A stretch of 39,131 bases of DNA from Acholeplasmatales bacterium (lineage in GTDB: Bacteria > Bacillota_I > Bacilli_A > Acholeplasmatales > Anaeroplasmataceae), in the NCBI GenBank assembly GCA_017444645.1, contig JAFSWG010000017.1, forward strand, positions 1-39,131, read 5' to 3'. The notes under the pieces are model-generated. The model saw nothing but the letters and a program-made list of their open reading frames with translations. It ran no database searches and was not told where the DNA came from. Of the stretch, positions 23,192-38,842 are shown one piece after another (within the stretch, counting starts at the first letter, position 1; each line of letters starts with the position of its first letter). The position numbers and the translations under genes were made by a program.

Positions 23192-24562
23192 ATGGCTAAA
23201 CCTAAAGACTTAACAGTAGGTAATCCTACGAAATTATTAATAAGTTTTTGTATTCCTTTATTTCTATCTGCTTTTTTCCAACAATTATATTCAATAGGTG
23301 ATTCAATAATTGCTGGAAGTATGATTGGAAATGATGCATTATCTGAAATATCTAATTCATATGAGGTTACATTAGTATTTATAGCATTTGCGTTTGGGTG
23401 TAATATTGGAGCTTCGGTAATAGTTGCAGGCTTTTATGGAGCAAAAAACTACTCAAAATTAAAAACCGCAGTGTTTACATCTACAATCACATCGTTGATA
23501 ATGTGCTTTATATTATTAATTTTAGGTATTACGTTATCTACGCCACTTTTAAGATTGTTAAATACAAAAGAAGAATTACTTAATAATTCTAGAGATTATT
23601 TATTAATATATTGTTATTCATTACCTTTTGTTTTTTTATATAATATATCAACAGGTATATTTTCAGCATTAGGTGATTCAAATACACCATTTATTTTCTT
23701 AGCTATATCAAGTGTAGCTAATGTATTAGTAGATGCTTGGTTTGCAGCAGCAGGCTTTGGGGTAGTAGGACTAGCTTGGGCTACATTTATTTGTCAGGCT
23801 GTTGCCGGTACATTGGCAACAATAGTAGTATTAAGAAAAATAACATCATTGAAAGAAGAAAATGAAAATAAAATAAAAATATTTGATATAGAGATTTTAA
23901 AATCATTTTTATTAGTTGCTATACCTTCAATTTTACAACAATCATTTATTTCAATTGGTAATTTAATTATTCAATCTGAAATTAATTCTTATGGGGGTCC
24001 TGCGATGGCTGGATATGGAGCTTCTGTAAAACTTAATAACATAGTTATTACATCATTAACCGCAGTAGGCAATGGTATATCAAATTATACAGCTCAAAAT
24101 CTAGGTGCTAATAAGCCTGAAAGGGTTAAAAAAGGATTTGTATCAAGCTTATTGATTTCATATTCTTTATTAATACCAATCACACTAATTTATCTTTTAT
24201 TAGCAACGCCACTTTTAAGTTTTTTTATTGACGATACAGTAACAATTGATAATCCACAAGAGAAGATAGATATGGTATATCAAATTGGAAAAAGCTTCTT
24301 ATATATAGTTGTTCCATTCTATATAGTTATCGCAACAAAGCTTGCATCAGATGGTGTATTAAGAGGAACAAGATTAATGAAACAATTTATGATAGCTACA
24401 TTATTAGATTTAGTAATTAGAGTAGGATTATCTTTTGTGTTTAATAATATTGGTGGAGTAGAAGCAATATGGTGGTCATGGCCAATTGGTTGGGCTGTAT
24501 CACTAATATTATCATTATTCTTTTTCTTGTATAATTATAAAAAAAATGGTATAAATAAATAA
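23192..24562 (+). CDS. MATE-family multidrug/metabolite efflux transporter
   Basis: 456 residues, twelve membrane helices in two six-helix halves, usual for cation-driven MATE transporters of the NorM/DinF superfamily. The N-terminal segment KLLISFCIPLFLSAFFQQLY and IGDSIIAG match the first helix and loop of MATE proteins. The second half repeats the pattern near residue 240 (FLLVAIPSILQQSFISIGN). A GNGISNYTAQNLGA stretch is also typical. The substrate cannot be read from sequence. A GGAAGTG site lies just before the ATG. Single gene between tRNA-Lys and two hairpins. Confidence 0.9.
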   Translation: MAKPKDLTVGNPTKLLISFCIPLFLSAFFQQLYSIGDSIIAGSMIGNDALSEISNSYEVTLVFIAFAFGCNIGASVIVAGFYGAKNYSKLKTAVFTSTITSLIMCFILLILGITLSTPLLRLLNTKEELLNNSRDYLLIYCYSLPFVFLYNISTGIFSALGDSNTPFIFLAISSVANVLVDAWFAAAGFGVVGLAWATFICQAVAGTLATIVVLRKITSLKEENENKIKIFDIEILKSFLLVAIPSILQQSFISIGNLIIQSEINSYGGPAMAGYGASVKLNNIVITSLTAVGNGISNYTAQNLGANKPERVKKGFVSSLLISYSLLIPITLIYLLLATPLLSFFIDDTVTIDNPQEKIDMVYQIGKSFLYIVVPFYIVIATKLASDGVLRGTRLMKQFMIATLLDLVIRVGLSFVFNNIGGVEAIWWSWPIGWAVSLILSLFFFLYNYKKNGINK

Positions 24563-24589: not shown

Positions 24590-24596
24590 CGATGGG

Positions 24597-24630
24597 AGAG
24601 TCTAAAATTGTGCATTTTAGGCTCTTTTTT
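24597..24630 (+). terminator. Intrinsic terminator of the MATE gene
   Basis: AGAGTCTAAAAT and ATTTTAGGCTCT arms (one G-T pair) with a 5-nt loop, followed by TTTTTT. Confidence 0.9.
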
Positions 24631-24753: not shown

Positions 24754-27700
24754 ATGATCAAGCAATATAAGGAAAATATGGATCTAATTTTAGAACTTGT
24801 TAGAAAGATTCTAAATATAGGTCCAAAGGACAAATTAGTATTTAATAAACTTAATGAAACATTTGATGAAGAGTTTTCATCACCAACATATGTTGATGAT
24901 AAATTATTAAATAAAATGGATTCAATATCTAAAAAAGCACCTAAATATTATTATCCATCTGGATTATTTTTATTTTTTAGAGAATCTTTTGAATACATTA
25001 TTAAATATGAAGATAGATATCATGAAATTAAAAATCAGTTAGAAAAATATAAAGATTTATATGCGACTGTAAATAAATTAAAAGATGATATGTGGCCATT
25101 TCATCCTTTCTTTCAAGAAGCTTTAGTTTTATTTGCTGTATTAGTGGATCCAGATAGCTTTTCAACTGCGATGAATCCAGATTTTGTAATGGAAGAATTA
25201 GTTAGACAAAATGCATTTTATGATGAAGATGGTGATGTAGTTCCTTTTGAATTACAGCTATTCTTTATGAAAATGGATGAATATTTTACTTATGCGGTCG
25301 ATATGCTAAATGAATTAAAAGATTTCAAAGATAAAAATCCTTCATTCCATCAAATTTGTGAAATTAAAAAAGTGCTAGATCAAAAATTTAAAATCTTCCA
25401 ACTAGGCTTTATGTCTAGATATGCAACTTTATATCAATTTGCTTTAATGCAATATGATAAAATTAATAATATTTTAAAAGATGCTTCATCAAATATTTTT
25501 GATAAAGAGCTTAAGGCTACCTATAAGCATATTAAAAATCGAATCGATAGTTTCGAATTTAGAATTAAAACAATTAAGAGAATAGATGAACTAGATAAAA
25601 TTAATGACGAAGTAAATGATTTATATAATTTTTCTGCTGAAAGATATAATGAATATGTTGATTATGTAACATTAATGTATGATGAAGTGCCTGAAATGTT
25701 TGATAAATTAACATTTATAATTACTAGCGAAGAAGAAGGAACAATTAATTATTTATATACATTAATTGATCAACAAATATCTAAAATTGAAGTTATTTAT
25801 GAAGAAAGAAAAAGAATATCAGAGGTTAGAGATTTATCTACAAAGATCAAAAATTTCTATGAGTTCTTAATTGGATTAAATGATGAAATTGGTAATAAAG
25901 AAGAAATATCTAAGAAAAAGATTGGTAACTTTACTTGTAAAAGTGATGCTGAATTTTTATATAAGAGATTAATTAAGCAAAAGGATAATTATTTTAAGCA
26001 CGTAAGAGTATTTGATTACATTGCTATGACTAATGGTTTAACTAATGTAACATTTAAAATTTATACAAGATCTGATTTCCAAAATATTGCAAAAGAAATT
26101 AGAGAAATAGAAAAATTCTTAGTTTTTGTATCTGAAAGTGTATTACCAGAAAATAGAAAAACATTAGAAACTGACCTTGAAAACGAAGGTAGAGAAATAG
26201 ATTTATTTGGTAAAAAGGTTAAAGTAGCCTTAATGAATGAAGATTTTAGTGAAATATCTTTTGATGATGATATGAAATCTCATACTTTTAATATCCATGA
26301 TTACTCTGCATACCATAAATTAGTGGATTATGCAGTGGATGTCAGAAAACAACCAGTATTCCAAGATTATGGTGACATTTCAGAATATCCTTATTTTAAG
26401 CCATTCAAATATCAAGTCGAATCAGTTAGAACAATGCTAAAAAAATTTGAAGGAAGAGGCGTATTTGGTGATCAGGTTGGTTTAGGTAAAACATTAGAAG
26501 CCTTAATGACAGCTGATGTAATGTTTAGATGTGCAACAATTAAAAATTGTGTAATTGTAACAACAAAGTCTACAATTCATCAGTGGAGAAATGAATGTAA
26601 TACTAAATTCCGTCATGAAGACGGCTCACCTATGTTTGAGGTTTATCCTAAGCATGATTCATATTCATTTATTGATTTAATACAAGAATTAAAGAAAGAT
26701 AAGGCTACAAAAAATCAAAATGCCCTAAAGGTTTATTTGGTATCTACAGAACAAATTAAATCTAATTCAACACTTGAATATATTAAAGAATCAAGTGAAT
26801 ATTTTGAATTAAAAAATGCTGTATATAACCCTTCTCCAGAAGTACCTAGTGACATTGATGTCACTGATATGAATATTAGTAAAATAATGTCAATTAAATA
26901 TTTAGATATTATCAAAAAGAGAATACCTAATGAATTATCTAGAAAAATTAAAGAATCTCTAGCAATGAATGAAGATTATCAAAAGCTAACTTCATTTAAT
27001 GTATATGGTTTCTTTACATATGAATTTGATGAAAAGAAAAGAAAATTCTATCCAACAAATGATAGAATCACATCAATGAAAAATGATAATGGATTTATAT
27101 TAGAAAAAGAAAAATCTTTATTACAAAAATATTCAAAATGTTTAGCTAAGATTGAAGAAAGAAAACAAACCTTAATTAAGCTAGTATCAGATATGAGTAA
27201 AAATGATAAGCTGGCAGAAGAAAGATTAATAGATTTATTAATATTTGATGAGGTCCAAGATTTATTAATTGATTTTAATAAAAAAGGAAATAAAGAAGAA
27301 ATTTTACAGGAATTTATAGCTAACATTCAAAAGAAGTATTGTATCTTAATTTCGGCTACACCTATTAGAAATGATTTATCTGATATCTTTAATTTATTAT
27401 ACATGGTAGATAAGAATAGATTAGGTGATAACAAAGAAATGGCTGAAGCTAAATTCTATAATGCTTATTGTGGTGGTGCAAGAAGCTTATCAGAAATGGC
27501 TGAATCTAATGAAGCATCTAAAAAATTTAGTAAGCTAAATGGATTAATTAATTCTATGTTTACTAGAAAGAGATTATATGACAATGATGTAATAGAATCT
27601 ATTAGACGTCATAGCGCAACAGAAATAGAAACTTCTCAAGCAAATTTATATCATAGAGATGATTATGGTGGACAAGCTTTTGTTAAACTTGTAAGTGCTA

Positions 27701-29214
27701 TAAGAAAAGCTCCAGAAATGAAGAATATGAATGATGATGAATTAGATTTATTTGTAAATAAATATATCAATCCATTATTTCCAAAAAGAAAGATTTCAAA
27801 TGAGATATTAAAGGATGCCTTTATGAATATGGCTGATTTAGTTGATCAATCAGTTAAGATTTGTACTAAGAGATTAGAATATCAAATGAGAATGAAGCTT
27901 GAATTATTCAATGTATATGATAAGTTCATTGAAAATTATAGAATCATTATAAAATCGGAGAGTGAAAATGATTTATCAATAATTTATAAAAAAGCAGTAG
28001 ATACATGTGATTTATTATCTTCGTATATCAATAGAGGACTTTTAGCATTCTATAGAGGATATCATGATTATTCAGCAGTATTTATTTCAGATTATATAGA
28101 TTGGAGAAGACCTAGAAAAACAGGTGAAGCAATTGATATAACATCTGAAGATAATAAGATTGATATGTTAACTTCATTATTAACAATTAATGATAAAAAG
28201 TTTAATGAGTTTAATATTTCAAAAGAGAATTTATTATTTATTGAAACAGCTAAAACATTAGTTTATGAACGAAAGCCTGAATTAAGAAGTAAGCTATATA
28301 GAAATATTAGACAAAATAAGAATCTATTTAATAAATCAAGAAGAGTATATATGAATTTATATATGTCTGAAGAAGATAATTATAATTTTGATGATTTCGT
28401 TCATTTTGGATATTTCCCTAAAGGTCAATATTCAAATAAGATGAAAGAATATATGCTAGAAATAACTTCAAAAGATGATAATGAACTAACTTACGAAGAA
28501 AGAAGATTAAAGGAATCTTATACAATAAATGGTTCATTAAAAAAGGCAGAAGTTGGAGATACATTTAAAGAATTAAATTATAATTGGTTTACTGAATTCA
28601 CTTCTGAAAATGAAAATTGGAACTCATTATATTTCATAGATAAAACAATGGTTGCTGGTACAGACTTTAACGCAGCTAATTTATTAATCATTGGTCAATT
28701 AGATAAACAAAATGGTGAATATATGGATCCACTTGAGTTAGAACAATTAATTGGTAGAATCTCAAGAATGGGACAAACTGAAACATGTCTTGTATTAACT
28801 TGTTTAACCAATGGTAGTGAAAATATTGATCATGTATTTAATAAAGAATATTATAATATTTTAACCGACGAAGAAGGATTTGATTTATATGGTGTATGTC
28901 AAACAGAGGTTGATTTCGTTATGCCAGTAATTATGGCAGTATCTAGAAAACTATTCTCAAAAGAATCATCATATTTAAAAATTGATAATCCTAATTTAGA
29001 AAATATTAATAAAGATTTTGTTGCAATATACCATGATGAATATATAGAATTTAATGCCAATAGATTCCCTGATATTGTTAGATATGTAATTGATAATAAC
29101 GATAATATAGATGTTTATTACAATAAAACTATCTTGAAGCCACTTGATGCCTTAAAAGAAATGATTAGATTGTATTCTAAGGTATTAAGAAATGACGTTA
29201 AAGATTTGGGATAG
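24754..29214 (+). CDS. Giant SNF2-like superfamily 2 helicase/ATPase
   Basis: 1486 residues. Residues 1-540 are a long helical region with no recognised domain. The ATPase core begins near 548 with FKPFKYQVESV. Motif I is GDQVGLGKT (572-580), motif II IFDEVQD (830-836), motif III SATP (867-870), a motif V-like GTDFNAANLL (about 1307-1316) and motif VI EQLIGRISRMGQ (1330-1341). The Q..GR..R.GQ ending is typical of SNF2/HepA-type DNA translocases. About 250 residues separate motifs I and II and about 460 separate III from VI, so both lobes carry large insertions. The first part of the protein might recognise a partner. The start has an AAAGGAG site. It is first in an operon with a Cys-cluster protein and a giant surface protein. 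Role unknown; DNA translocation or remodelling is inference. Confidence 0.85.
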   Translation: MIKQYKENMDLILELVRKILNIGPKDKLVFNKLNETFDEEFSSPTYVDDKLLNKMDSISKKAPKYYYPSGLFLFFRESFEYIIKYEDRYHEIKNQLEKYKDLYATVNKLKDDMWPFHPFFQEALVLFAVLVDPDSFSTAMNPDFVMEELVRQNAFYDEDGDVVPFELQLFFMKMDEYFTYAVDMLNELKDFKDKNPSFHQICEIKKVLDQKFKIFQLGFMSRYATLYQFALMQYDKINNILKDASSNIFDKELKATYKHIKNRIDSFEFRIKTIKRIDELDKINDEVNDLYNFSAERYNEYVDYVTLMYDEVPEMFDKLTFIITSEEEGTINYLYTLIDQQISKIEVIYEERKRISEVRDLSTKIKNFYEFLIGLNDEIGNKEEISKKKIGNFTCKSDAEFLYKRLIKQKDNYFKHVRVFDYIAMTNGLTNVTFKIYTRSDFQNIAKEIREIEKFLVFVSESVLPENRKTLETDLENEGREIDLFGKKVKVALMNEDFSEISFDDDMKSHTFNIHDYSAYHKLVDYAVDVRKQPVFQDYGDISEYPYFKPFKYQVESVRTMLKKFEGRGVFGDQVGLGKTLEALMTADVMFRCATIKNCVIVTTKSTIHQWRNECNTKFRHEDGSPMFEVYPKHDSYSFIDLIQELKKDKATKNQNALKVYLVSTEQIKSNSTLEYIKESSEYFELKNAVYNPSPEVPSDIDVTDMNISKIMSIKYLDIIKKRIPNELSRKIKESLAMNEDYQKLTSFNVYGFFTYEFDEKKRKFYPTNDRITSMKNDNGFILEKEKSLLQKYSKCLAKIEERKQTLIKLVSDMSKNDKLAEERLIDLLIFDEVQDLLIDFNKKGNKEEILQEFIANIQKKYCILISATPIRNDLSDIFNLLYMVDKNRLGDNKEMAEAKFYNAYCGGARSLSEMAESNEASKKFSKLNGLINSMFTRKRLYDNDVIESIRRHSATEIETSQANLYHRDDYGGQAFVKLVSAIRKAPEMKNMNDDELDLFVNKYINPLFPKRKISNEILKDAFMNMADLVDQSVKICTKRLEYQMRMKLELFNVYDKFIENYRIIIKSESENDLSIIYKKAVDTCDLLSSYINRGLLAFYRGYHDYSAVFISDYIDWRRPRKTGEAIDITSEDNKIDMLTSLLTINDKKFNEFNISKENLLFIETAKTLVYERKPELRSKLYRNIRQNKNLFNKSRRVYMNLYMSEEDNYNFDDFVHFGYFPKGQYSNKMKEYMLEITSKDDNELTYEERRLKESYTINGSLKKAEVGDTFKELNYNWFTEFTSENENWNSLYFIDKTMVAGTDFNAANLLIIGQLDKQNGEYMDPLELEQLIGRISRMGQTETCLVLTCLTNGSENIDHVFNKEYYNILTDEEGFDLYGVCQTEVDFVMPVIMAVSRKLFSKESSYLKIDNPNLENINKDFVAIYHDEYIEFNANRFPDIVRYVIDNNDNIDVYYNKTILKPLDALKEMIRLYSKVLRNDVKDLG

Positions 29215-29226
29215 GATGTGATTATT

Positions 29227-31311
29227 ATGAATATTGAATATGCTAATAATTTAATAAATTATGCTTTAAATATTGGAATGTTAATAAAAGATGAAAATGA
29301 TAATTATATCCTAAACGACGTTATATATCATTTTGATTTTTCAGATATTGAAGATAAAGAAAATGAATTATTATTAAAGGATTTAAGATCTAATTTACCA
29401 ATAACAGAAGTAATAGATTTAGTTAAAGAAGCAATATCTTTAAATATCGTTACAGATGTTAGCTCTGAAAATAAGCTTACAGATTTTTTAGATTTTGATG
29501 ATTATATTAGTATCGTTAATGAAAATCATTTCTTATTTAAAATAAATAGTGAATCATTTGATGATACTATTTATAAGGTAACATTTGATAAGCGTAAGCA
29601 TGATATTAAAAGAAAAATTGAATATGCGAGCCGTACATCACAATTTGTTGATACTTTATTGAAAAGAATAATGGCTAAATATAATATTTTATTAGTTAGA
29701 AAAGCTGATTTTAGAACTGATAAATATCCTACTTTAAAGGAATCAGATTATTATGAAGCTAAATTTAGTCATATTATTGATACAGAAAGTGAAACAGATA
29801 CAATTCAAAATGAAATAAAAGTTATGGTTAATTATAAAGATAATTTTAATAACCAAACTGTAAGTGAAAATGTTATTGATGATATATTTATTTCATTATC
29901 AAAAAATGAAGTGTCATATGGTTTTTATAACATTGGTCAAAGTGAAGCAGAGCCAGTATATGATGCGATAAATGAAAGTGTTGATTTAGAAGATATTGAT
30001 TCATTATTAAGAATAAGAAATCTAATTTCTTCCCCAGAAGTTAAATTTAATATCTTTGAAACATTAAGAAATAATAAAGATACAAATTTAGCTAAATTAA
30101 TCGAAACAAGAGAAGAAAATCTTAATGAAACAAAATCCTTAGAGCCTAAAATTGAATTTACTGTTACTCCACTTTCAATATATTGTAATCACATTGTAGA
30201 GAAGAAATGTGTTTATGAAATAGTTAGTAAAAATCCATATTATAAAGATTATCCATTATTATATGAAATTTCTTATAATCCTGCTGATTTAAATGATATT
30301 TCATTTGATGTAGATATTGATGGTATTGTTGAACGAGTAAAAAATCAAGATATTATTCTAGCATTTGATGACGCTCCAACAAGAGGTAATGTAACGCCTA
30401 GAATGACTATTGAAAGATGTGCTGTAATGCTTTATGGATTTAATGAGAGATTTAATGATGAAATATACAAGGATGTATATTTTTTGAAAGATTCTTTAGT
30501 TAAATTAATTAATAATAAAGTTGAACCATTTGATGGTAATTTAGATGATAATACATATTTAAAGAGCCAAATAGTTAAAGGTGAAATAACAGGTAATTAT
30601 TATTACATTGGTGACGCGGTTGAAATGGATTCAAATGATATTTTAGGTGCTGCAATTATTGAAGATAATAAGAAACATTATGTATCTAAAGAATATGCTA
30701 GAAAATGTGATACATGTAATCACTTATTTGGTGCTACAAATGAGATTTGGAAAATGTATACTGATTCCCATTTAATTATCAATAGTGATAATAATAAATC
30801 ATGTTGTGATTACTGTGCTAATGAAGAAGATAATTATAAATATAATAACGGATTGTCTATTCTTTATTCAAAAGGACAGAAGAAGTATTTCTTAGATGAT
30901 ATTAAGAATTTAAAATATACTGACAGATGTATATCTTGTGAGAATAAGCATGAATCTATCTTATTTGTGAATCCTAATATGAAAACTCATTTACCTGATA
31001 TTTGTATATCTTGTAAAAGATATTATTGTCCTACACATATAGACTCCAAAACACATATTTGTGTAAATTGTTCTAAGAATGTTAATGCAAAGGATATAAA
31101 GGAATTAAATCAAAAGCTTCAGGTTCATGCTAGAATGAATATTCAAGCTAAAGATATGTTTAAAAAGCAATTATCATTCTATTTTAATGAAGAATGGAAT
31201 GCATTATGGATTTATTCAGAATCTAAGAATAGATTAACAACATATTATATGATTACAGATGATAAAAAGAAATTTATGCATCTAGAAAAAGTATTTAAGA
31301 TAAAGAGGTGA
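29227..31311 (+). CDS. Unknown protein with C-terminal zinc-binding cysteine clusters
   Basis: 694 residues, family not recognised. Residues 1-480 are acidic and soluble without catalytic signature. The C-terminal third has paired cysteines: C494/C497, C526/C527/C530, C568/C571 and C593/C596/C601/H604/H610/C612/C615. The last set, CxxCxxxxCxxH then HxCxxC, resembles B-box or treble-clef zinc fingers. At least two zinc sites are likely. ATG 29227 is chosen because AGGATGTG lies 6 nt upstream; a GTG at 29218 is the alternative. It lies 12 nt after the helicase and 6 nt before the giant membrane protein. A role as adaptor or nucleic-acid-binding partner of the helicase is inference. Confidence 0.75.
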   Translation: MNIEYANNLINYALNIGMLIKDENDNYILNDVIYHFDFSDIEDKENELLLKDLRSNLPITEVIDLVKEAISLNIVTDVSSENKLTDFLDFDDYISIVNENHFLFKINSESFDDTIYKVTFDKRKHDIKRKIEYASRTSQFVDTLLKRIMAKYNILLVRKADFRTDKYPTLKESDYYEAKFSHIIDTESETDTIQNEIKVMVNYKDNFNNQTVSENVIDDIFISLSKNEVSYGFYNIGQSEAEPVYDAINESVDLEDIDSLLRIRNLISSPEVKFNIFETLRNNKDTNLAKLIETREENLNETKSLEPKIEFTVTPLSIYCNHIVEKKCVYEIVSKNPYYKDYPLLYEISYNPADLNDISFDVDIDGIVERVKNQDIILAFDDAPTRGNVTPRMTIERCAVMLYGFNERFNDEIYKDVYFLKDSLVKLINNKVEPFDGNLDDNTYLKSQIVKGEITGNYYYIGDAVEMDSNDILGAAIIEDNKKHYVSKEYARKCDTCNHLFGATNEIWKMYTDSHLIINSDNNKSCCDYCANEEDNYKYNNGLSILYSKGQKKYFLDDIKNLKYTDRCISCENKHESILFVNPNMKTHLPDICISCKRYYCPTHIDSKTHICVNCSKNVNAKDIKELNQKLQVHARMNIQAKDMFKKQLSFYFNEEWNALWIYSESKNRLTTYYMITDDKKKFMHLEKVFKIKR

Positions 31312-31317
31312 TAAAAT

Positions 31318-34300
31318 ATGGTTTTATATGACAATATAGATAATGCTATAAAAGAAAAAAAACAAAAACTTAATAACAACCATATTAGAAACCTAAAGAT
31401 TATGAACATCTTAAATGCTTTAGTAATGACATTTTTAATTATCATTGATATATTCTTATTAATAAAAGGTATTTTTACAGGTATGCCTAGTTCGGTTACA
31501 GCATTATTAATAATATTTGTTGTAGCACAAACTGGATCTTTAGTTGTATTTTCAATTAAAAGATTTGCAAGAGCTAGTATGGTTACTAAAGTTGGTATAG
31601 TAATTATATGTACATTACCAATTATTCCATATATTATTTATTTATCTATTGGTAATAATATTTATATTGCATGTCTAATAGCAAGAATTATAGGTGTTAT
31701 TGCCTTAGCTATGTTATTATTTAATGCTAAAACAACAAATGATAAGAAAACATTTGGTGTTAAAGGCATTCCACTTGCGATAGCATCTTTATTTGCTTTA
31801 TTAGTAGTAATATATATTTTAGTTTCAACTACTAATAGAAAAGTAATATATTCATATGATCCTTTGTATGACGGATATGTAGTAAGTGATGTATTATCAG
31901 GAAAAGGTGAAGTAAATATTGATAATAATACAGTAGCTATTTCATCCAAGTCCTTAAAAAATGTTAGTGGAAATTTAGTAATACCAAAGAATGTTAGATA
32001 TATAGCGGAAGATGCATTTGTCGATTCAAATATTACCTCATTAACTATTTATTCTGAAAATATTGAGTTAATGAAGGCAGTAAATAATTCAAATATTGAA
32101 AATATATATTTAGAAAGTACAAATGCAACAATCGATGTTGATAACCTAGATAAAGATATTGAAATTGCAACTAATAGAGAAGTAGTAGATCAATATAGGG
32201 AAACATATAGAAAATATGATTATTTATTTGTTCCTAAATTAAATTCAGGTGAATATTATGTATGTTTCAACGGAACAAATCTACCAGTATATATTTATAA
32301 GGAAGAAAAAGAAATAAATGAACCACAAAAGGATTCTCTTCCAAAAGAAATAGATGGAAAGAAAATATTATTTAATGGTTATTATGTTTCTAATAAAGAA
32401 ATTAATTTCCCTATTAATGTTTCATCTAACACTAAAATAGCTTGTGAATATAGTTACATTTATAATGTTACATATGACTTTTCAGGTTGTGAAGATATAT
32501 ATGATCTTCCAACAACTTATTATAATAAAATAGGTGATGTTGAGCTTCCTGAATTAAGTAAGGATGGATACCAATTTAAGGGTTGGTATGATGTTGATCA
32601 ATATGGAAATTATACAAAAGAGTATAAGAAATTAGATAGAACATTAAAGAATGATATTAATTTAAAAGCAAAATTTTTGAAAGAATTTACAGTAACATAT
32701 GATAAGGTATTATCTAATGCTACATTAGATGGAAATACAAAAGAAATTTATACTGAAGAAGATGTTGTTGAATTAAAAAATCCAACAATTGATGGATTTA
32801 CATTTGATGGTTGGTATTTAGATTCAAAATATAATGTTAAAGCAACTACTTATCTAAATAGTGATACAACTTTATATGCTAAATGGAAAATCAATAATAT
32901 CGTTACATTATCTGATGATGTTAATAAGGTATTTGACAATACTGAATCTAATGTTAATGTAAGCGCAGTTGCAGAATTAAAAGATGTTACAATTTCATAT
33001 AGTTTCTATGATAAAGATGATAATTTAATTGTTAACGATAATAATTTTAATGTTATTAATGCAAAAGATTCAAATGATTATTATGCAAAGATAACATTTA
33101 ATTATAAAGATATAGTTATATATGAAATGAAAACTGACTATATCAATGTAACAATAAATAAGGCAACATATGATATGACAGATGTTGTTGTTAGTGATGA
33201 AGAATATGTATATGATGGCACATTCCATACACCTAGTATTACAGGTGTTTTACCTACAGGAATAGATAATATTCAAATCACATATAGCTTTGATGAAGGA
33301 ATTAAAAATGTTGGTACTAAAAATGTATTATGTCATTTTAATACTTTATCTGAAAATTATGAAATACCTTCTGATATTGAAGGAATTGTTACAATTACAG
33401 AAAGAGAAGTAACAATTAATTGGAATAGTAAATTAGAGTTTGAATATGATGGAAGTATGAAATTCCCTGAATACACATTAAAGAATGTTATATCATCTGA
33501 TATAGAGAATTTAAAATGTAATTCAACAGGATCAGCAAATGGTATAGGAGAACATACTGCAAAAATTACATCATTAGTTCAAGATAGTGGAAATGTTTAT
33601 AAAAATTATAAATTAACAAGCAACCAATCTAATTTAAGTATTCAATATACAATTGTTCCTAGAACTAATGAAATTGATGGAATTAGTGTATCCGATGTTG
33701 AAGCTGTATACGATGGAAAAATACATTTACCAGAAGTAGTTAAGCCATCTGGAATTGAAGCAAAATATTCAATTGAACCTGTTAATGTAGGTACATATAA
33801 TGTGGTTGTTAGTTTCGAATATATAACTAATCCAAATGAAAAAATTGGAAATATTTATAATTCAACAGTAACAATTACCCGACGTGAATTAGATATTAAT
33901 TGGTATATAGATGAAGAAGAAACAAACACAACCGTATATGATGGTAAATCACATGTGATTGACTATGAGATTACAAATTTAGTAGGTAATGATAAAGTTG
34001 AATTAGATTATAATACTTTTGATTTATTAAATGCTGGTAATTATTCAATTTCTTTCGAGATTAGTGGTGACGATAAAGATAATTATATTTTAACTAACAA
34101 AGAATTCAAATATACAATTACCCCAAAAGAGATATCATTTGATTTAAATGATTTAGGATTTAATGATACAAATTATACATATAATGGCAAGAACCAATAT
34201 CCTTCTATTGATATTGATAATCCAAATCTTCCTAAGGGTGTGGTTGTATCATATGAAGGTTATGGAAAAGAAGCAAAAACATATAATGTTACAGCTAACT

Positions 34301-37300
34301 TTAGTATTAATTCTACAAATTACAAGATAGCTGATAGTTCAAAATCTAAAACAATTAAAGTTGTTATAAATCCAAAAGTTGCAGAAATTACATGGGGACA
34401 AAGAACATTTGTATACGATGAAAAAGAGCATTTCCCAACTGCGACAGTAGGTAATTTGGAGTCTGGTGATACATGTAATGTAGTAGTTACTTATAGGGAA
34501 GAATATGCAATGACCCCAGGTACATATACAGCTGTTGCTAGCGAATTAAGTAATAAGAATTATATATTACCAAATGATGAAAGTAAGACAACAACATCAT
34601 TTATTATTGAAGAAGCTGAATATGCCTTCACATATGAATTCAATCCATTAGAAGTGGATTATGATGGAAACTTCCATATGGTAGAAGTTGAAATTGATGA
34701 TATGCCAAATTGGTTGTTTATTAATTATAAGACATCTGATGGTGATGAGATAATAGATGGATTTAAAGATGCTGGAACGTATGTAGTTTTAGCTGAGTTT
34801 AAATCTAATAATCCTTCTTACTCTGTACCTTCTGAGCCTATCCAAACTACTGTGACAATTAAAGCATTAGAGGCAAATATTTCATTTACTCTTGAAAATA
34901 ATACATATACAGGTGAAGCAATTTATCCAACAGCCAAAGTAACTAATGTGGTTGAAGGAGATAATCCTATTGTTATATTAGATAGAGGAAAGGATAATAT
35001 TAATGTTGGCAATTATGTAGTTAAAGCTATCGAAATATCTGGCAATAGTAATTATAAGATTAGTAACTCTGTTGCATATTCTTATGAAATTAAAAAGGCT
35101 ACATATGACACATCAAATATTCAATTTGTTAATAAATCATTCGAATATGATGGACATGTTAAGAATATATTTATTACTGCAAAGGATGAATTATTAGGTA
35201 CTGAAATAAAAGGAAAAGATGGTGTAGTTGTAACTATAAGCTATTCTGATGGATTAATCGATGTTGGTACAAAACTAATTACAGCGACATTTACAGGATC
35301 ATCTAATTATAACGAAATACCTCAAATGACAGCATATGTAACTGTTGCACCAAAAGAAGTAGAACTTCGTTGGGGAGGTTCTTCATTCACATATACAGGT
35401 ACTGTAATTAAACCTGAATGTATTATATCTGGTACTGTATTAAATGATACATGTTATTGTACAGTTAATGCATCTGGAATAAATGTTGGTAAGCATATAG
35501 CTACAGCATCTAATTTAACAAATTCAAATTATAAATTACCACAAGATAATTCATACGAATATGAAATAACAAAAGCAACAATTGATATTTCAGGCTTATC
35601 ATATAATTCAACTACGAAGGTTTATGATTCAACTGACTTATATCCTGAAATTGTAGGTACAATACCTGCAGGTGTTGATGTAACATATGAAGGATTATCA
35701 AGTGAGGTAGGAGTTCATACTATTACTATTAAATTTGATGCAGGAGAAAACTATAACAAGATTCCATCTAAGGAAATAGATGTAGAAATTACTAAACGTC
35801 AAGTATCAATTAATTGGACTGATTTAGAAGCACCATATACAGGTGTAGAATCTTATCCAAGCTATGAATTGTCAAATATTATCTTTGGTGATATTTGCGA
35901 AGTTGTATTTGATGAAGGTGGAATTGAAGTTGGTGAACATACTATTAATGTATTGAGATTAACTAATAATAATTACGAACTTGATAAAGAATACTCTGTT
36001 ACATATAAGATAATTAAATTAGATTATGATATGTCTGGTATTAAATTTGAGAATGTAGAATTAGAATATAATGGTCAAGAACAAAGACCTACAATTTCTG
36101 GCACATTACCTCAAGGCTTATCAGTAAGCTATAGTGCTGGTGCTACGAATGTAAGTGAAGGTACAAAAACAGTTACTGCAACATTTACATCATCTGATGA
36201 TAATTACATTGCACCTAAGCCAATGACAGCAACAATTACAATTTTACCTAAGGTATTAAATGTATCTTGGACAAACACTACAGTTGATTATGATGGAAAA
36301 AAGCATTCTCCAACTGCAACATTAAGTGGATTTGTTGGTGATGATACTGCGACTGTGACTATAACTGATTATGGTATTAATGCAGATACATACGAATGTG
36401 GTATTGCATCTATTTCAAATAAGAATTATTCTGTGACATCAACAGTAACATTAACAATCAATAAGATTGATTATGATATGTCAGATGTTAAATTTGAAAA
36501 TGTTACATTTACTTATGATGGATTAGAGCATCAACAAGAAGTTACAGGATTATCTTCTGTAATTGGAATTGATGGTATTAGTCTTGAAATAAATGAATAC
36601 ACAGGAGTGGCAAAAAATGTTAGTGATTCAGGTGTAGAATGTACTGTTTCATTTAAGACATCATCTCCAAATTATAATGTTCCAAATGATATGACTTGTA
36701 TAATTAATATCACTCCAATAACAGTTGATTTATCAATTAAGTTAGATACAAATTCAAGCGTTGTTGCTAGTACTCAATCATGGAATAATTGTTATAGTAT
36801 TTCAACAACTTATGATGGATTAGAACATACAGTAATTATTGGATATGATTCAAAAAATATTGTATCTGGTGATAATGTATCATTTAGCATCGATGGAACA
36901 TTTAAAGATTATAATAGTGGAAATGCACATGCATTTGATATTATTTCTAATAATTCTAATTATGTATCTACATATAATAAGCTTAATGCATATATTAATC
37001 AATTAAATGCTGGATATTGGTGGAATGGTATAACTCCAGGTTGGTGGCCAAGTGACGTTAGTAGTCTTCCAGATGTAGTATTAATTTATACTCATACATC
37101 TATTGATGGATTAACTTATACAGATGAAATACCAACAATATATGGAAGTTATACATTAAGATATGAATCAATTACTGAAAATGTTAAAATTAGCAATCCA
37201 CAAGAATCAACATCTACATATGATGTTTCACTGACTGGAGATAGTTTATTAGCTCTAGCACATTATTATGATTCCAATAATGATGGTAAGATTACAGATT

Positions 37301-37788
37301 ATCCTGAATTAGTTAATATAGAATCATTATATAATCAATTGGGTGAAAATATTCCTGAAATTGAAGAAATAATAAATACATCTTATGCTGATTATATTAG
37401 TGATGCCGAAATAATTGAATTTGTGAAGAAGGATTCAACAGTAGTATCAACTTCTGATTATTGCACAAATGTTAGCGGAAATCTAAAAGATAATATTGAT
37501 TCAAAATTATACTATGGTCATAAATTTGAAACTGCTATTAAGATGGAGACAGCAACTAATATTACATTGAATTTAGAAGGCACAGATTTTACATATGTTA
37601 TTTTAGTGACAGATGCCGCAAATAAGAAGATTAAAATAAATAATTATACTACAGATTCAAGTGGTAATTATTTTGCAACAGATGATGATGGAACTATGAA
37701 ATTACGATTTGAAAGTACTCCAAATAGTTTAGTTATTACAAAAAATGAGAAAGATGTTAATCTATATGGAATTATTCTAATGAAATAA
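31318..37788 (+). CDS. Giant membrane-anchored surface protein: five TM helices, LRR-like, Flg_new and MBG-type repeats
   Basis: 2156 residues. Five hydrophobic helices (29-50, 58-80, 91-111, 114-136, 149-170) follow a charged N-terminus, which should place the rest outside the cell. A short BspA-like leucine-rich stretch (about 205-270) precedes two Flg_new/InlB B-repeat domains (about 385-460 and 460-525, GYQFKGWY and GFTFDGWY with LKAKF and LYAKW). Next come sixteen MBG/YDG-type Ig-like repeats (about 616-1950). The last is degenerate with a Trp-rich insertion (GYWWNGITPGWWP). An EF-hand-like loop DSNNDGKITDYPE (1985-1997) and a C-terminal beta-rich domain end it. No cleavable signal peptide and no LPXTG motif. 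AGAGGTGA precedes the ATG. An adhesin or cell-envelope role is inference. Confidence 0.85.
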   Translation: MVLYDNIDNAIKEKKQKLNNNHIRNLKIMNILNALVMTFLIIIDIFLLIKGIFTGMPSSVTALLIIFVVAQTGSLVVFSIKRFARASMVTKVGIVIICTLPIIPYIIYLSIGNNIYIACLIARIIGVIALAMLLFNAKTTNDKKTFGVKGIPLAIASLFALLVVIYILVSTTNRKVIYSYDPLYDGYVVSDVLSGKGEVNIDNNTVAISSKSLKNVSGNLVIPKNVRYIAEDAFVDSNITSLTIYSENIELMKAVNNSNIENIYLESTNATIDVDNLDKDIEIATNREVVDQYRETYRKYDYLFVPKLNSGEYYVCFNGTNLPVYIYKEEKEINEPQKDSLPKEIDGKKILFNGYYVSNKEINFPINVSSNTKIACEYSYIYNVTYDFSGCEDIYDLPTTYYNKIGDVELPELSKDGYQFKGWYDVDQYGNYTKEYKKLDRTLKNDINLKAKFLKEFTVTYDKVLSNATLDGNTKEIYTEEDVVELKNPTIDGFTFDGWYLDSKYNVKATTYLNSDTTLYAKWKINNIVTLSDDVNKVFDNTESNVNVSAVAELKDVTISYSFYDKDDNLIVNDNNFNVINAKDSNDYYAKITFNYKDIVIYEMKTDYINVTINKATYDMTDVVVSDEEYVYDGTFHTPSITGVLPTGIDNIQITYSFDEGIKNVGTKNVLCHFNTLSENYEIPSDIEGIVTITEREVTINWNSKLEFEYDGSMKFPEYTLKNVISSDIENLKCNSTGSANGIGEHTAKITSLVQDSGNVYKNYKLTSNQSNLSIQYTIVPRTNEIDGISVSDVEAVYDGKIHLPEVVKPSGIEAKYSIEPVNVGTYNVVVSFEYITNPNEKIGNIYNSTVTITRRELDINWYIDEEETNTTVYDGKSHVIDYEITNLVGNDKVELDYNTFDLLNAGNYSISFEISGDDKDNYILTNKEFKYTITPKEISFDLNDLGFNDTNYTYNGKNQYPSIDIDNPNLPKGVVVSYEGYGKEAKTYNVTANFSINSTNYKIADSSKSKTIKVVINPKVAEITWGQRTFVYDEKEHFPTATVGNLESGDTCNVVVTYREEYAMTPGTYTAVASELSNKNYILPNDESKTTTSFIIEEAEYAFTYEFNPLEVDYDGNFHMVEVEIDDMPNWLFINYKTSDGDEIIDGFKDAGTYVVLAEFKSNNPSYSVPSEPIQTTVTIKALEANISFTLENNTYTGEAIYPTAKVTNVVEGDNPIVILDRGKDNINVGNYVVKAIEISGNSNYKISNSVAYSYEIKKATYDTSNIQFVNKSFEYDGHVKNIFITAKDELLGTEIKGKDGVVVTISYSDGLIDVGTKLITATFTGSSNYNEIPQMTAYVTVAPKEVELRWGGSSFTYTGTVIKPECIISGTVLNDTCYCTVNASGINVGKHIATASNLTNSNYKLPQDNSYEYEITKATIDISGLSYNSTTKVYDSTDLYPEIVGTIPAGVDVTYEGLSSEVGVHTITIKFDAGENYNKIPSKEIDVEITKRQVSINWTDLEAPYTGVESYPSYELSNIIFGDICEVVFDEGGIEVGEHTINVLRLTNNNYELDKEYSVTYKIIKLDYDMSGIKFENVELEYNGQEQRPTISGTLPQGLSVSYSAGATNVSEGTKTVTATFTSSDDNYIAPKPMTATITILPKVLNVSWTNTTVDYDGKKHSPTATLSGFVGDDTATVTITDYGINADTYECGIASISNKNYSVTSTVTLTINKIDYDMSDVKFENVTFTYDGLEHQQEVTGLSSVIGIDGISLEINEYTGVAKNVSDSGVECTVSFKTSSPNYNVPNDMTCIINITPITVDLSIKLDTNSSVVASTQSWNNCYSISTTYDGLEHTVIIGYDSKNIVSGDNVSFSIDGTFKDYNSGNAHAFDIISNNSNYVSTYNKLNAYINQLNAGYWWNGITPGWWPSDVSSLPDVVLIYTHTSIDGLTYTDEIPTIYGSYTLRYESITENVKISNPQESTSTYDVSLTGDSLLALAHYYDSNNDGKITDYPELVNIESLYNQLGENIPEIEEIINTSYADYISDAEIIEFVKKDSTVVSTSDYCTNVSGNLKDNIDSKLYYGHKFETAIKMETATNITLNLEGTDFTYVILVTDAANKKIKINNYTTDSSGNYFATDDDGTMKLRFESTPNSLVITKNEKDVNLYGIILMK
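33160..37190 (+). repeat. Array of 16 MBG/YDG-type protein repeats in two alternating types
   Basis: In translation the array is eight pairs. Type A begins like YDMSDVKF, has YDG...P and LP.G..V.Y, and ends NY..P....TVTI.PKEV. Type B begins like INW or VSW, has YDG/YTG...PT, GD, GI.VG.Y or GEH, and ends NY.L....Y.I.KA. Each unit has about 70-87 residues. The DNA is too diverged to be a recent tandem duplication. The final B unit is degenerate. Confidence 0.8.
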
Positions 37789-38089: not shown

Positions 38090-38842
38090 ATGGAATATAT
38101 TAAATTAACAAAGGATAATATTGAAACTGAACATATTTGCTGTGCTATATCTAATAACAATGATGTACAAGTATCTAGCAAAAAAGCTTGGTTAAAAGAA
38201 AGAATAGATGAAGGATTAGTATTTTTAAAAAGTGTAGAAAGAGGCAAATGCTTCATTGAATACATACCTGCGGAATATGCATGGAATCCAATTGATGCTG
38301 CAGGATATATGTATATAAATTGTTTATGGGTATCTGGTTCATTTAAAGGCCATGGTTATTCCAATGACTTATTAAATGAATGCATTAAAGATTCAAAAGA
38401 AAAAGGAAAGAAAGGATTATGCATTTTATCATCCAAAAAGAAATTACCATTTTTGGCAGATTCTAAGTATTTATCTTATAAAGGGTATAAGGTTGCTGAT
38501 ACTGCAACTAATGGAATTGAATTATGGTATTTACCATTCAATGATAATAATGTAATACCTAAATTTAAAGACTGCTGTAGAGATCCTAAAATAGAAGAAA
38601 TGGGATATGTATTATATTATACTAATCAATGTCCATTTAATGGTAAATATGTACCAATATTAGAAGACATTGCAGTAAAGAATAATATTCCATTTAAAGC
38701 TATTAAAATAAATAGATTAAATGAGGCACAAAATGCCCCAACTCCTATAACAACATATTCATTATTTTATAATGGAAAATATATAAGTAATGAACAAATG
38801 AATGAATCAAGATTTTTAAAATTAGTAGAAAAAAATAAATAA
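38090..38842 (+). CDS. yoaP: GNAT N-acetyltransferase with C-terminal YoaP-like domain
   Basis: 250 residues. The N-terminal GNAT domain (about 1-150) has the core strand YINCLWVSGSFKGHGYSNDLL, where the GHGYS stretch corresponds to the acetyl-CoA pyrophosphate loop (Q/RxxGxG/A). It continues with a KGLCILSS strand. The C-terminal part (about 165-250), with GYVLYYTNQCPFNGKYVP, matches the YoaP-like domain, found fused to GNAT in Bacillus YoaP and relatives, and looks thioredoxin-like. The substrate is unknown. AGGAG lies 9 nt before the start, which is 12 nt after the small ORF. A long terminator follows. Confidence 0.85.
   Translation: MEYIKLTKDNIETEHICCAISNNNDVQVSSKKAWLKERIDEGLVFLKSVERGKCFIEYIPAEYAWNPIDAAGYMYINCLWVSGSFKGHGYSNDLLNECIKDSKEKGKKGLCILSSKKKLPFLADSKYLSYKGYKVADTATNGIELWYLPFNDNNVIPKFKDCCRDPKIEEMGYVLYYTNQCPFNGKYVPILEDIAVKNNIPFKAIKINRLNEAQNAPTPITTYSLFYNGKYISNEQMNESRFLKLVEKNK

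Follow-up and report, generated by a model that had tools for sequence, protein, structure and literature searches.

The DNA considered here (the window: 39,131 nucleotides, positions 1 to 39,131 of contig JAFSWG010000017.1 in assembly GCA_017444645.1 of an Acholeplasmatales bacterium) encodes a long protein in whose repeats two Ig-like types follow each other in strict alternation. It raises the question of whether such an order is imposed by an interface between the two types or is the inherited outcome of the way in which the array grew, and what a protein of this kind may do for the cell. On the best reading of its sequence and of the structural models, the protein is a predicted membrane-anchored surface stalk that carries at its C terminus a CBM77-like, putatively pectin-binding tip (Table 1). 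Its orthologs in the genus comprise four near-full-length proteins, as well as two that are split. Among the papers listed in one literature search, none was judged relevant to these stalks.

The membrane region at the N terminus is highly conserved across five orthologs, with hydropathy peaks (Kyte–Doolittle) at residues 31–49, 52–82, 93–111, 117–135, and 151–169. It is followed by a segment resembling BspA-type repeats and by two Flg_new stretches that pass PF09479, the second of which was placed by eye at approximately residues 380–455. Beyond the repeats, a stretch named EF-hand-like by eye precedes three helices that are absent from one ortholog (L064) in the alignment. The confidence of the model is low to middling for residues 1895–1970 and for the region of the last repeat, B8.

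Table 1. Predicted features of the stalk gene and of the two genes preceding it, in window coordinates.
Feature	Position	Strand	Remarks
First cassette gene, SNF2-family ATPase	24754..29214	+	1486 aa; PF00176, E 2e-14
Second cassette gene, Cys-rich C terminus	29218..31311	+	697 aa
Stalk gene	31318..37788	+	2156 aa; ORF and translation; N terminus membrane-anchored (predicted)
N-terminal membrane region	31408..31824	+	Kyte–Doolittle scan
BspA-type LRR_5-like segment	31912..32136	+	aa 199–273; Pfam LRR_5 18.4 bits, under the cut-off of 27.7
Listeria–Bacteroides (Flg_new) repeat, best copy	32686..32883	+	aa 457–522; PF09479, E 4.8e-14
Repeat A1	33163..33399	+	
Repeat B1	33400..33660	+	
Repeat A2	33661..33882	+	
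Repeat B2	33883..34125	+	
Repeat A3	34126..34374	+	
Repeat B3	34375..34614	+	
Repeat A4	34615..34866	+	
Repeat B4	34867..35097	+	
Repeat A5	35098..35352	+	
Repeat B5	35353..35574	+	
Repeat A6	35575..35796	+	Opens the A-B-A-B model
Repeat B6	35797..36018	+	In the A-B-A-B model
Repeat A7	36019..36249	+	In the A-B-A-B model
Repeat B7	36250..36465	+	In the A-B-A-B model
Repeat A8	36466..36717	+	
Repeat B8	36718..36999	+	Weak class B member
Three helices preceding the tip	37237..37401	+	Secondary structure of the model
C-terminal CBM77-like domain (tip, predicted pectin-binding)	37402..37785	+	Fold, profile, and Pfam match

The sixteen Ig-like repeats occupy residues 616–1894 (nucleotides 33163–36999) and form eight A–B pairs, with borders set by eye. 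The initial annotation had placed the array at 33160–37190, with an end about 190 nucleotides beyond the last repeat. It gave a pair length of about 155 residues; the pairs span 148–178 residues (166, 155, 163, 161, 159, 148, 149, and 178, from the first to the eighth). The strict alternation that it described is real and old. Identity in the MAFFT alignment is 28% within the classes versus 21% between them, and among the 12870 possible divisions into two groups of eight, the observed within-class similarity is reached solely by the alternating division and its complement, with either MAFFT identity or Smith–Waterman similarity as the measure. Spectral clustering without labels returned the order ABABABABABABABAB. 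Leave-one-out profiles placed all sixteen repeats in the expected class, as did profiles of outside origin, the one for A being built on two A-only arrays and the one for B on the stalk of G010, whose unit calls had used window profiles. The two clades that the annotation had anticipated for A and B were also recovered: a single A/B change is seen in the tree of the 16 repeats, with weak support (74/68), and in an 80-row tree from five species (SH-aLRT 93), and B forms one side of a branch with support 95 in a tree of 144 units, which left out units below 15 bits; the A-only set of that analysis consisted of six proteins from among the arrays seen. The class is thus firm for fifteen of the repeats, B8 being a weak member of its own; it scores 16.7 bits with the B profile and 8.5 bits with the A profile, has a long branch in the tree, is poorly predicted in the structural model, and its counterpart in G018 is B with window profiles and A with wider ones.

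Class A resembles Pfam MBG_3, and class B resembles MBG_2/YDG. At an E value of 0.01, MBG_3 (PF18887) is matched by 12 of 54 A units (from 58 A references, the units of L061 being left out), while MBG_2 (PF18676) and YDG (PF18657) are matched by 26 and 11, respectively, of 55 B units (from 59 B references, without three from L061 and one repeat reference for an identical unit). At the default Pfam level the array of the window hardly registers (MBG_2, 8.7 bits, cut-off 25), and the one pair with listed scores, A7–B7, also stays below the MBG/YDG family cut-offs (MBG_3, 23.7 bits, cut-off 25); matches above the cut-off are present in the relatives G010 and G031. No sequence match for repeats A1–B7 was found in the PDB. 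The 32-window repeat alignment does not include the final window, which holds B8, of any of the five full arrays. The model of the A-B-A-B segment is confident and nearly all β (pLDDT 95.3, pTM 0.70), and its structural matches are elongated tandem Ig-like proteins, all with Z below 8. The top ones include GhpA, the grappling hook protein of Aureispira (9fls and other entries; Z 5.4–6.2), likewise a long tandem Ig-like stalk. Since Z is below 8, the likeness is one of common arrangement only; identity is 7–11%, and there is no evidence of common descent.

The array is static in length. All four complete orthologs have the organization (AB)x8, the pieces of the split ortholog in G006 sum to the same, and the truncated ortholog in G018 has 13 units in phase. 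Across six genomes, 90 of 93 units have their best match at the same position of the window array. In the 80-row tree, 14 of the 15 position groups listed form one clade each, and B3 needs two changes; the five rows of B8 also form one clade, in the tree drawing or in the A-side listing. All 16 positions were already present in the ancestor of the five species, each position being a lineage of its own and old, and the array has kept its alternation from an ancient forerunner. Pfam YDG and MBG_2 were created in the study of Periscope Proteins (PMC8201768), which include CdrA with MBG_2 repeats; these stalks are built of Pfam families that the window repeats resemble. According to that study, Periscope stalks vary their repeat number via near-identical repeats, whereas in our comparison, made at the species level, 16 repeats are found in the four complete orthologs, with the split ones consistent, and same-class repeats of the window are 17–46% identical.

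Traces of growth are readable in the stalk of G010, where one duplicated block comprises six domains and another five. Nucleotide identity between the copies is 76% for the six-domain block and 90% for the five-domain one, in which a single unit reaches 99.5%; weaker traces are present at lag 4. Judged from these copies, duplication of multi-domain blocks is the most likely way in which the array was extended. Even-sized copies preserve the alternation and odd-sized ones break it; the five-domain copy in G010 breaks it and produces B–B junctions.

An alternative is that the A–B pair is the evolutionary unit and that A and B fold and stack via an obligatory repeated interface, like G5 and E in SasG; the initial annotation, too, had suggested expansion by duplication of the pair and an obligate A/B interface. 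This would agree with the strict alternation of the four complete orthologs and the split one, and with a weak congruence of the A_i and B_i trees when B8 is left out (Mantel r = 0.50, p = 0.08), but the congruence vanishes once B8 is kept (r = 0.00, p = 0.41), and the B_i and A_i+1 trees give r = 0.38 with p = 0.18. Expansion by pair duplication is not demonstrated here: same-class repeats are only 17–46% identical, the A and B trees are not significantly congruent, and the 16 positions predate the five species. The five-domain block of G010 speaks against the pair as the unit. Same-class junctions are rarer than the shuffled expectation in G010 (2 versus 14.1), G009 (2 versus 8.5), and G008 (5 versus 9.2), so that a preference for A/B neighbors is possible. 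Nevertheless, homologous domains of other proteins form A-only arrays of 13–15 domains, B–B junctions are present in G008, G009, and G010, and mixed arrays of other families contain both A–A and B–B junctions (ABBAABAA in G490, ABAABABAB in G413), the latter coming from ten of many loci, most of them picked for matches reaching both halves of the pair, of which one (L109) had no array. The calls vary with the profiles used, G008 having five B–B junctions with window-only profiles and three with wider ones, and the last unit being A or B in G009 and, in G010, B with window profiles versus A with wider ones. The length of the N-terminal arm is intrinsic to the unit and independent of the class of its neighbor (a length of 14 in 39 of 56 B units after A and in 7 of 8 after B). 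Since A-only and out-of-phase arrays exist, domains of these kinds do not require contact between A and B, although it may matter in this particular stalk; an obligate interface as a domain property is not supported by these arrays, junctions, and arm lengths. The G5–E stalks of SasG and Aap are likewise long monomeric stalks of the bacterial surface with strict alternation of two domain types, and in them E lacks order by itself and acquires its fold only when joined to G5 (PMC4458895). Unlike there, both classes of the window have an Ig-like character, and other proteins contain stacks of either class upon itself; we consider an obligatory pair quite improbable.

The tip has the fold and the sequence profile of the CBM77 of Ruminococcus flavefaciens PL1/9 (5fu5; profile E 1e-9). 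The structural match has Z 13.9 and rmsd 3.1 over 114 residues of a 117-residue chain, and the second-best match has Z 9.3. PF18283 scores 27.1 bits in the six-frame search versus 21.6 in the whole-protein scan, around a cut-off of 25, and 31–56 bits in six orthologs. Of the three pectin-binding lysines of 5fu5, K1107 and K1162 align with K2075 and K2142 of the window protein, both invariant in the four aligned rows, whereas K1092 faces V/I, with an invariant K2063 three residues further; one of the three lysines is shifted. The domain of 5fu5 is attached to a lyase, and that of the window to a stalk. The R. flavefaciens domain is listed in PMC5943554 as a probe for low-esterified homogalacturonan.

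The genus is rich in pectate lyases, with eight PF00544 matches in the window's own genome. The organism is a gut bacterium, probably one that lacks a cell wall. A PBP transpeptidase was found in 0 of 10 stalk carriers versus 6 of 17 non-carriers (Fisher p = 0.057); these are draft genomes, that of the window being 74% complete, and missing PBPs are therefore not proof of wall loss. SasG is anchored to the cell wall, whereas no sortase (PF04203) was found in 27 genomes, with a control search positive in 3 of 14, and the protein ends in the CBM77-like domain. We regard as probable, from the sequences and models, a surface stalk with a membrane N terminus, a block-copied and then frozen A/B array, and a pectin-binding tip. 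The N terminus would hold the stalk in the membrane, the Ig-like domains would stack end to end into a long rod, and the tip, probably held away from the cell by the stalk, would bind low-esterified pectin; the probably wall-less gut bacterium may thereby be tethered to pieces of plant cell wall during the action of its pectate lyases. Points against the tether are the G010 stalk, in which CBM77 has no match, and the link to a helicase, for which a tether does not account.

The stalk is the last gene of a three-gene cassette with intergenic gaps of 3 and 6 bp, whose order is constant wherever contigs allow. Of 27 genomes, 10 carry the cassette, and these are identical for all three genes. No terminator-like site was found between the genes on the + strand, and one lies ahead of the first gene (24594–24628). 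Such co-inheritance would fit a system in which the stalk works alongside the products of the other two genes, in defence, in the control of a phage receptor, or in sensing at the surface, the pectin tip being secondary. However, the PADLOC hits of gene 1 are confined to the helicase core and neither of the other genes has any, leaving a known phage-defence system unsupported, and CBM77 is retained above the Pfam cut-off in the stalk ORFs of 9 of the 10 cassette genomes. We hold this three-gene reading to be unlikely. No family was found for the second gene. A doubtful but conceivable variant for wall-less gut bacteria is that the pectin-binding stalk is fixed in the SNF2 ATPase/Cys-rich system and couples surface attachment to an intracellular nucleic-acid activity, for example in plant-substrate sensing or in a defence or uptake system using the stalk outside.

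Strict alternation of two domain types can be a frozen outcome of block copying and does not by itself prove that the two must interact; the choice between the two explanations is made testable by arrays of relatives in which odd-sized blocks were copied. The locus also points to a fully co-inherited helicase–stalk cassette. For the tether that we favor, the stalk would represent a possible way for bacteria without a wall or sortase to hold a long tether with a tip for plant polysaccharide.

The 16 Ig-like repeats of the stalk protein, the boundaries of which were cut by eye, alternate strictly between two classes, A and B, as the initial annotation had proposed for eight consecutive pairs, and all tests concur. 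Among the 12870 balanced labellings, only the alternating one and its complement reached the similarity contrast observed. Leave-one-out profiles assigned 16/16 repeats to the expected class, as did profiles built from other proteins, and clustering without labels returned the alternating arrangement for all 16. A and B had been expected to form two clades; a single A/B change is found in the trees of 16 rows (support 74/68) and of 80 rows (SH-aLRT 93), and in a tree of 144 units class B occupies one side of a branch supported at 95. The alternation is confirmed, with one repeat, B8, a consistently weak class member.

When units were scanned singly against Pfam (54 A and 55 B units, threshold E 0.01), A units matched MBG_3 (12/54) and Big_3_5 (8/54), and B units MBG_2 (26/55), YDG (11/55), MBG (7/55) and MBG_3 (5/55). 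By these matches, the two classes map roughly, and with overlap, onto catalogued families, two of which originate from the Periscope Protein study (PMC8201768). Further repeat arrays occur elsewhere. A second A-type array is present in the same genome (contig G000:C65, ORF of 1380 aa), and a 12865-aa open frame in another genome (G012:C26, locus L043) carries A, B, and a third type, C, after LRR_5 repeats, the A-B-C order being judged by eye. Open frames with repeat matches reach 16337 aa (G067:C3), 12480 aa (G061:C4), and 10680 aa (G069:C32) in other genomes.

The layout of the stalk protein and of the two genes preceding it is listed in the table. In the ortholog at locus L064, the helical, EF-hand-like segment ahead of the CBM77-like tip is absent.

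Features of the stalk gene, its product, and the adjoining cassette genes
Feature	Position	Strand	Remarks
SNF2-family ATPase (gene 1)			1486 aa; upstream of stalk; cassette gaps 3 and 6 bp
Cys-rich protein (gene 2)			697 aa; upstream of stalk; cassette gaps 3 and 6 bp
Genes 1 and 2 together	24754-31311		directly 5' of stalk gene
Stalk gene	31318-37788	+	2156 aa
Hydrophobic N-terminal region	peaks between aa 31 and 169		hydropathy
LRR_5 match, weak	aa 199-273		after hydrophobic region
Flg_new, two stretches	between LRR_5 match and ~aa 528
Stretch between Flg_new and repeats	~aa 528-615
16 repeats	aa 616-1894
Stretch after repeats, then three helices, then C-terminal beta domain			structure model

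All three cassette genes are common to the same ten of the 27 genomes of the genus, with gene order conserved wherever contigs permit. Gene 1 was found in 10/27 genus genomes; gene 2 in 10/160 genomes of the order, all within this genus, and in 2/392 genomes of a phylum-wide sample, neither of which was a new carrier; and the N-terminal part of the stalk in the same ten, one of which (G018) has the remainder on another contig. In close orthologs, conservation is 79-86% for gene 1, 73-86% for gene 2, and 49-63% for the stalk. Two window neighbours were tested, at 23192-24562 and 38090-38842; among the other loci covered, neither was found beside the cassette, and PADLOC returned only helicase-core matches on the cassette.

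Stalk orthologs were found within the same genus, and five are present also in named MAG records (Acholeplasmatales, Erysipelotrichaceae or Bacillales); RUG in such names denotes rumen genomes. Eight AB pairs are present in the window and in four complete orthologs. The array of G006, split over two contigs, comprises 7 and 9 units in phase, and the truncated array of G018 has 13 units in phase, the last being typed as A with wider profiles. Ortholog units have their best window match at the same position in 90/93 cases, and in a five-species tree 14 of the 15 listed position groups form one clade, B3 requiring two changes; for B8, the sixteenth group, outside that list, the five rows stand together in the drawn tree. 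Together, the matches and the tree suggest neither gain nor loss of repeats after the divergence of these species.

Growth by duplication of an A-B pair, as initially proposed, is unproven for the window, since congruence between its A and B trees was not significant. In the more distant relative G010, the stalk has 30 units (L040:8350-17880), with copies of a six-unit block (76% nucleotide identity) and of a five-unit block (90%, one unit 99.5%), as well as a fainter trace at a lag of four; the five-unit copy placed B beside B.

The proposed interpretation of the alternation stood as regards two classes, but the obligatory A/B interface, as a property of these domains, is not supported by the sequences, since A-only arrays exist (15 units in G031, 14 in G077, and 13 in G073) and mixed arrays run out of phase (ABBAABAA in G490, ABAABABAB in G413). 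Even so, three relatives (G010, G009, and G008) have fewer same-class junctions than shuffling predicts. The distance from unit start to the conserved Tyr depends on the unit's own class, being most often 14 in B units after A (39/56) and after B (7/8), and 16-17 in A units after B (51/61) and after A (16/24). In the model of A6-B7 (pLDDT 95.3, pTM 0.70), the last strand of one domain and the first of the next are separated by 1 residue at A6/B6, 13 at B6/A7, and 4 at A7/B7. Its structural neighbours are tandem Ig-like stalks, with Z scores (at most 6.2) too low for a family claim.

The final ~128 residues resemble the CBM77 of Ruminococcus flavefaciens (5fu5) with a Z score of 13.9, the next match being at 9.3, and a four-sequence profile recovers 5fu5 at E 1e-9. 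The CBM77 family, PF18283, scored 27.1 bits on the window stalk in one search and 21.6 in another (cut-off 25), and lies above cut-off on the stalk ORF in 9/10 carriers, the exception being G010. Lysines of CBM77 take part in pectin binding. Low-esterified homogalacturonan is the listed target of CBM77 (PMC5943554). Pectate lyases (PF00544) are encoded in 24/27 genus genomes, with eight matches in the organism's own genome. Penicillin-binding transpeptidases were detected in 6/27 genus genomes and 0/10 carriers (Fisher p 0.057; completeness 74% for the own genome and 98-100% for carriers G016, G008, and G010), and sortase in 0/27. Cell-wall loss thus seems to vary inside one genus. A wall-less cell would agree with a tether held in the membrane, and the stalk most likely functions as a pectin-binding tether, as judged from sequence and structure models.
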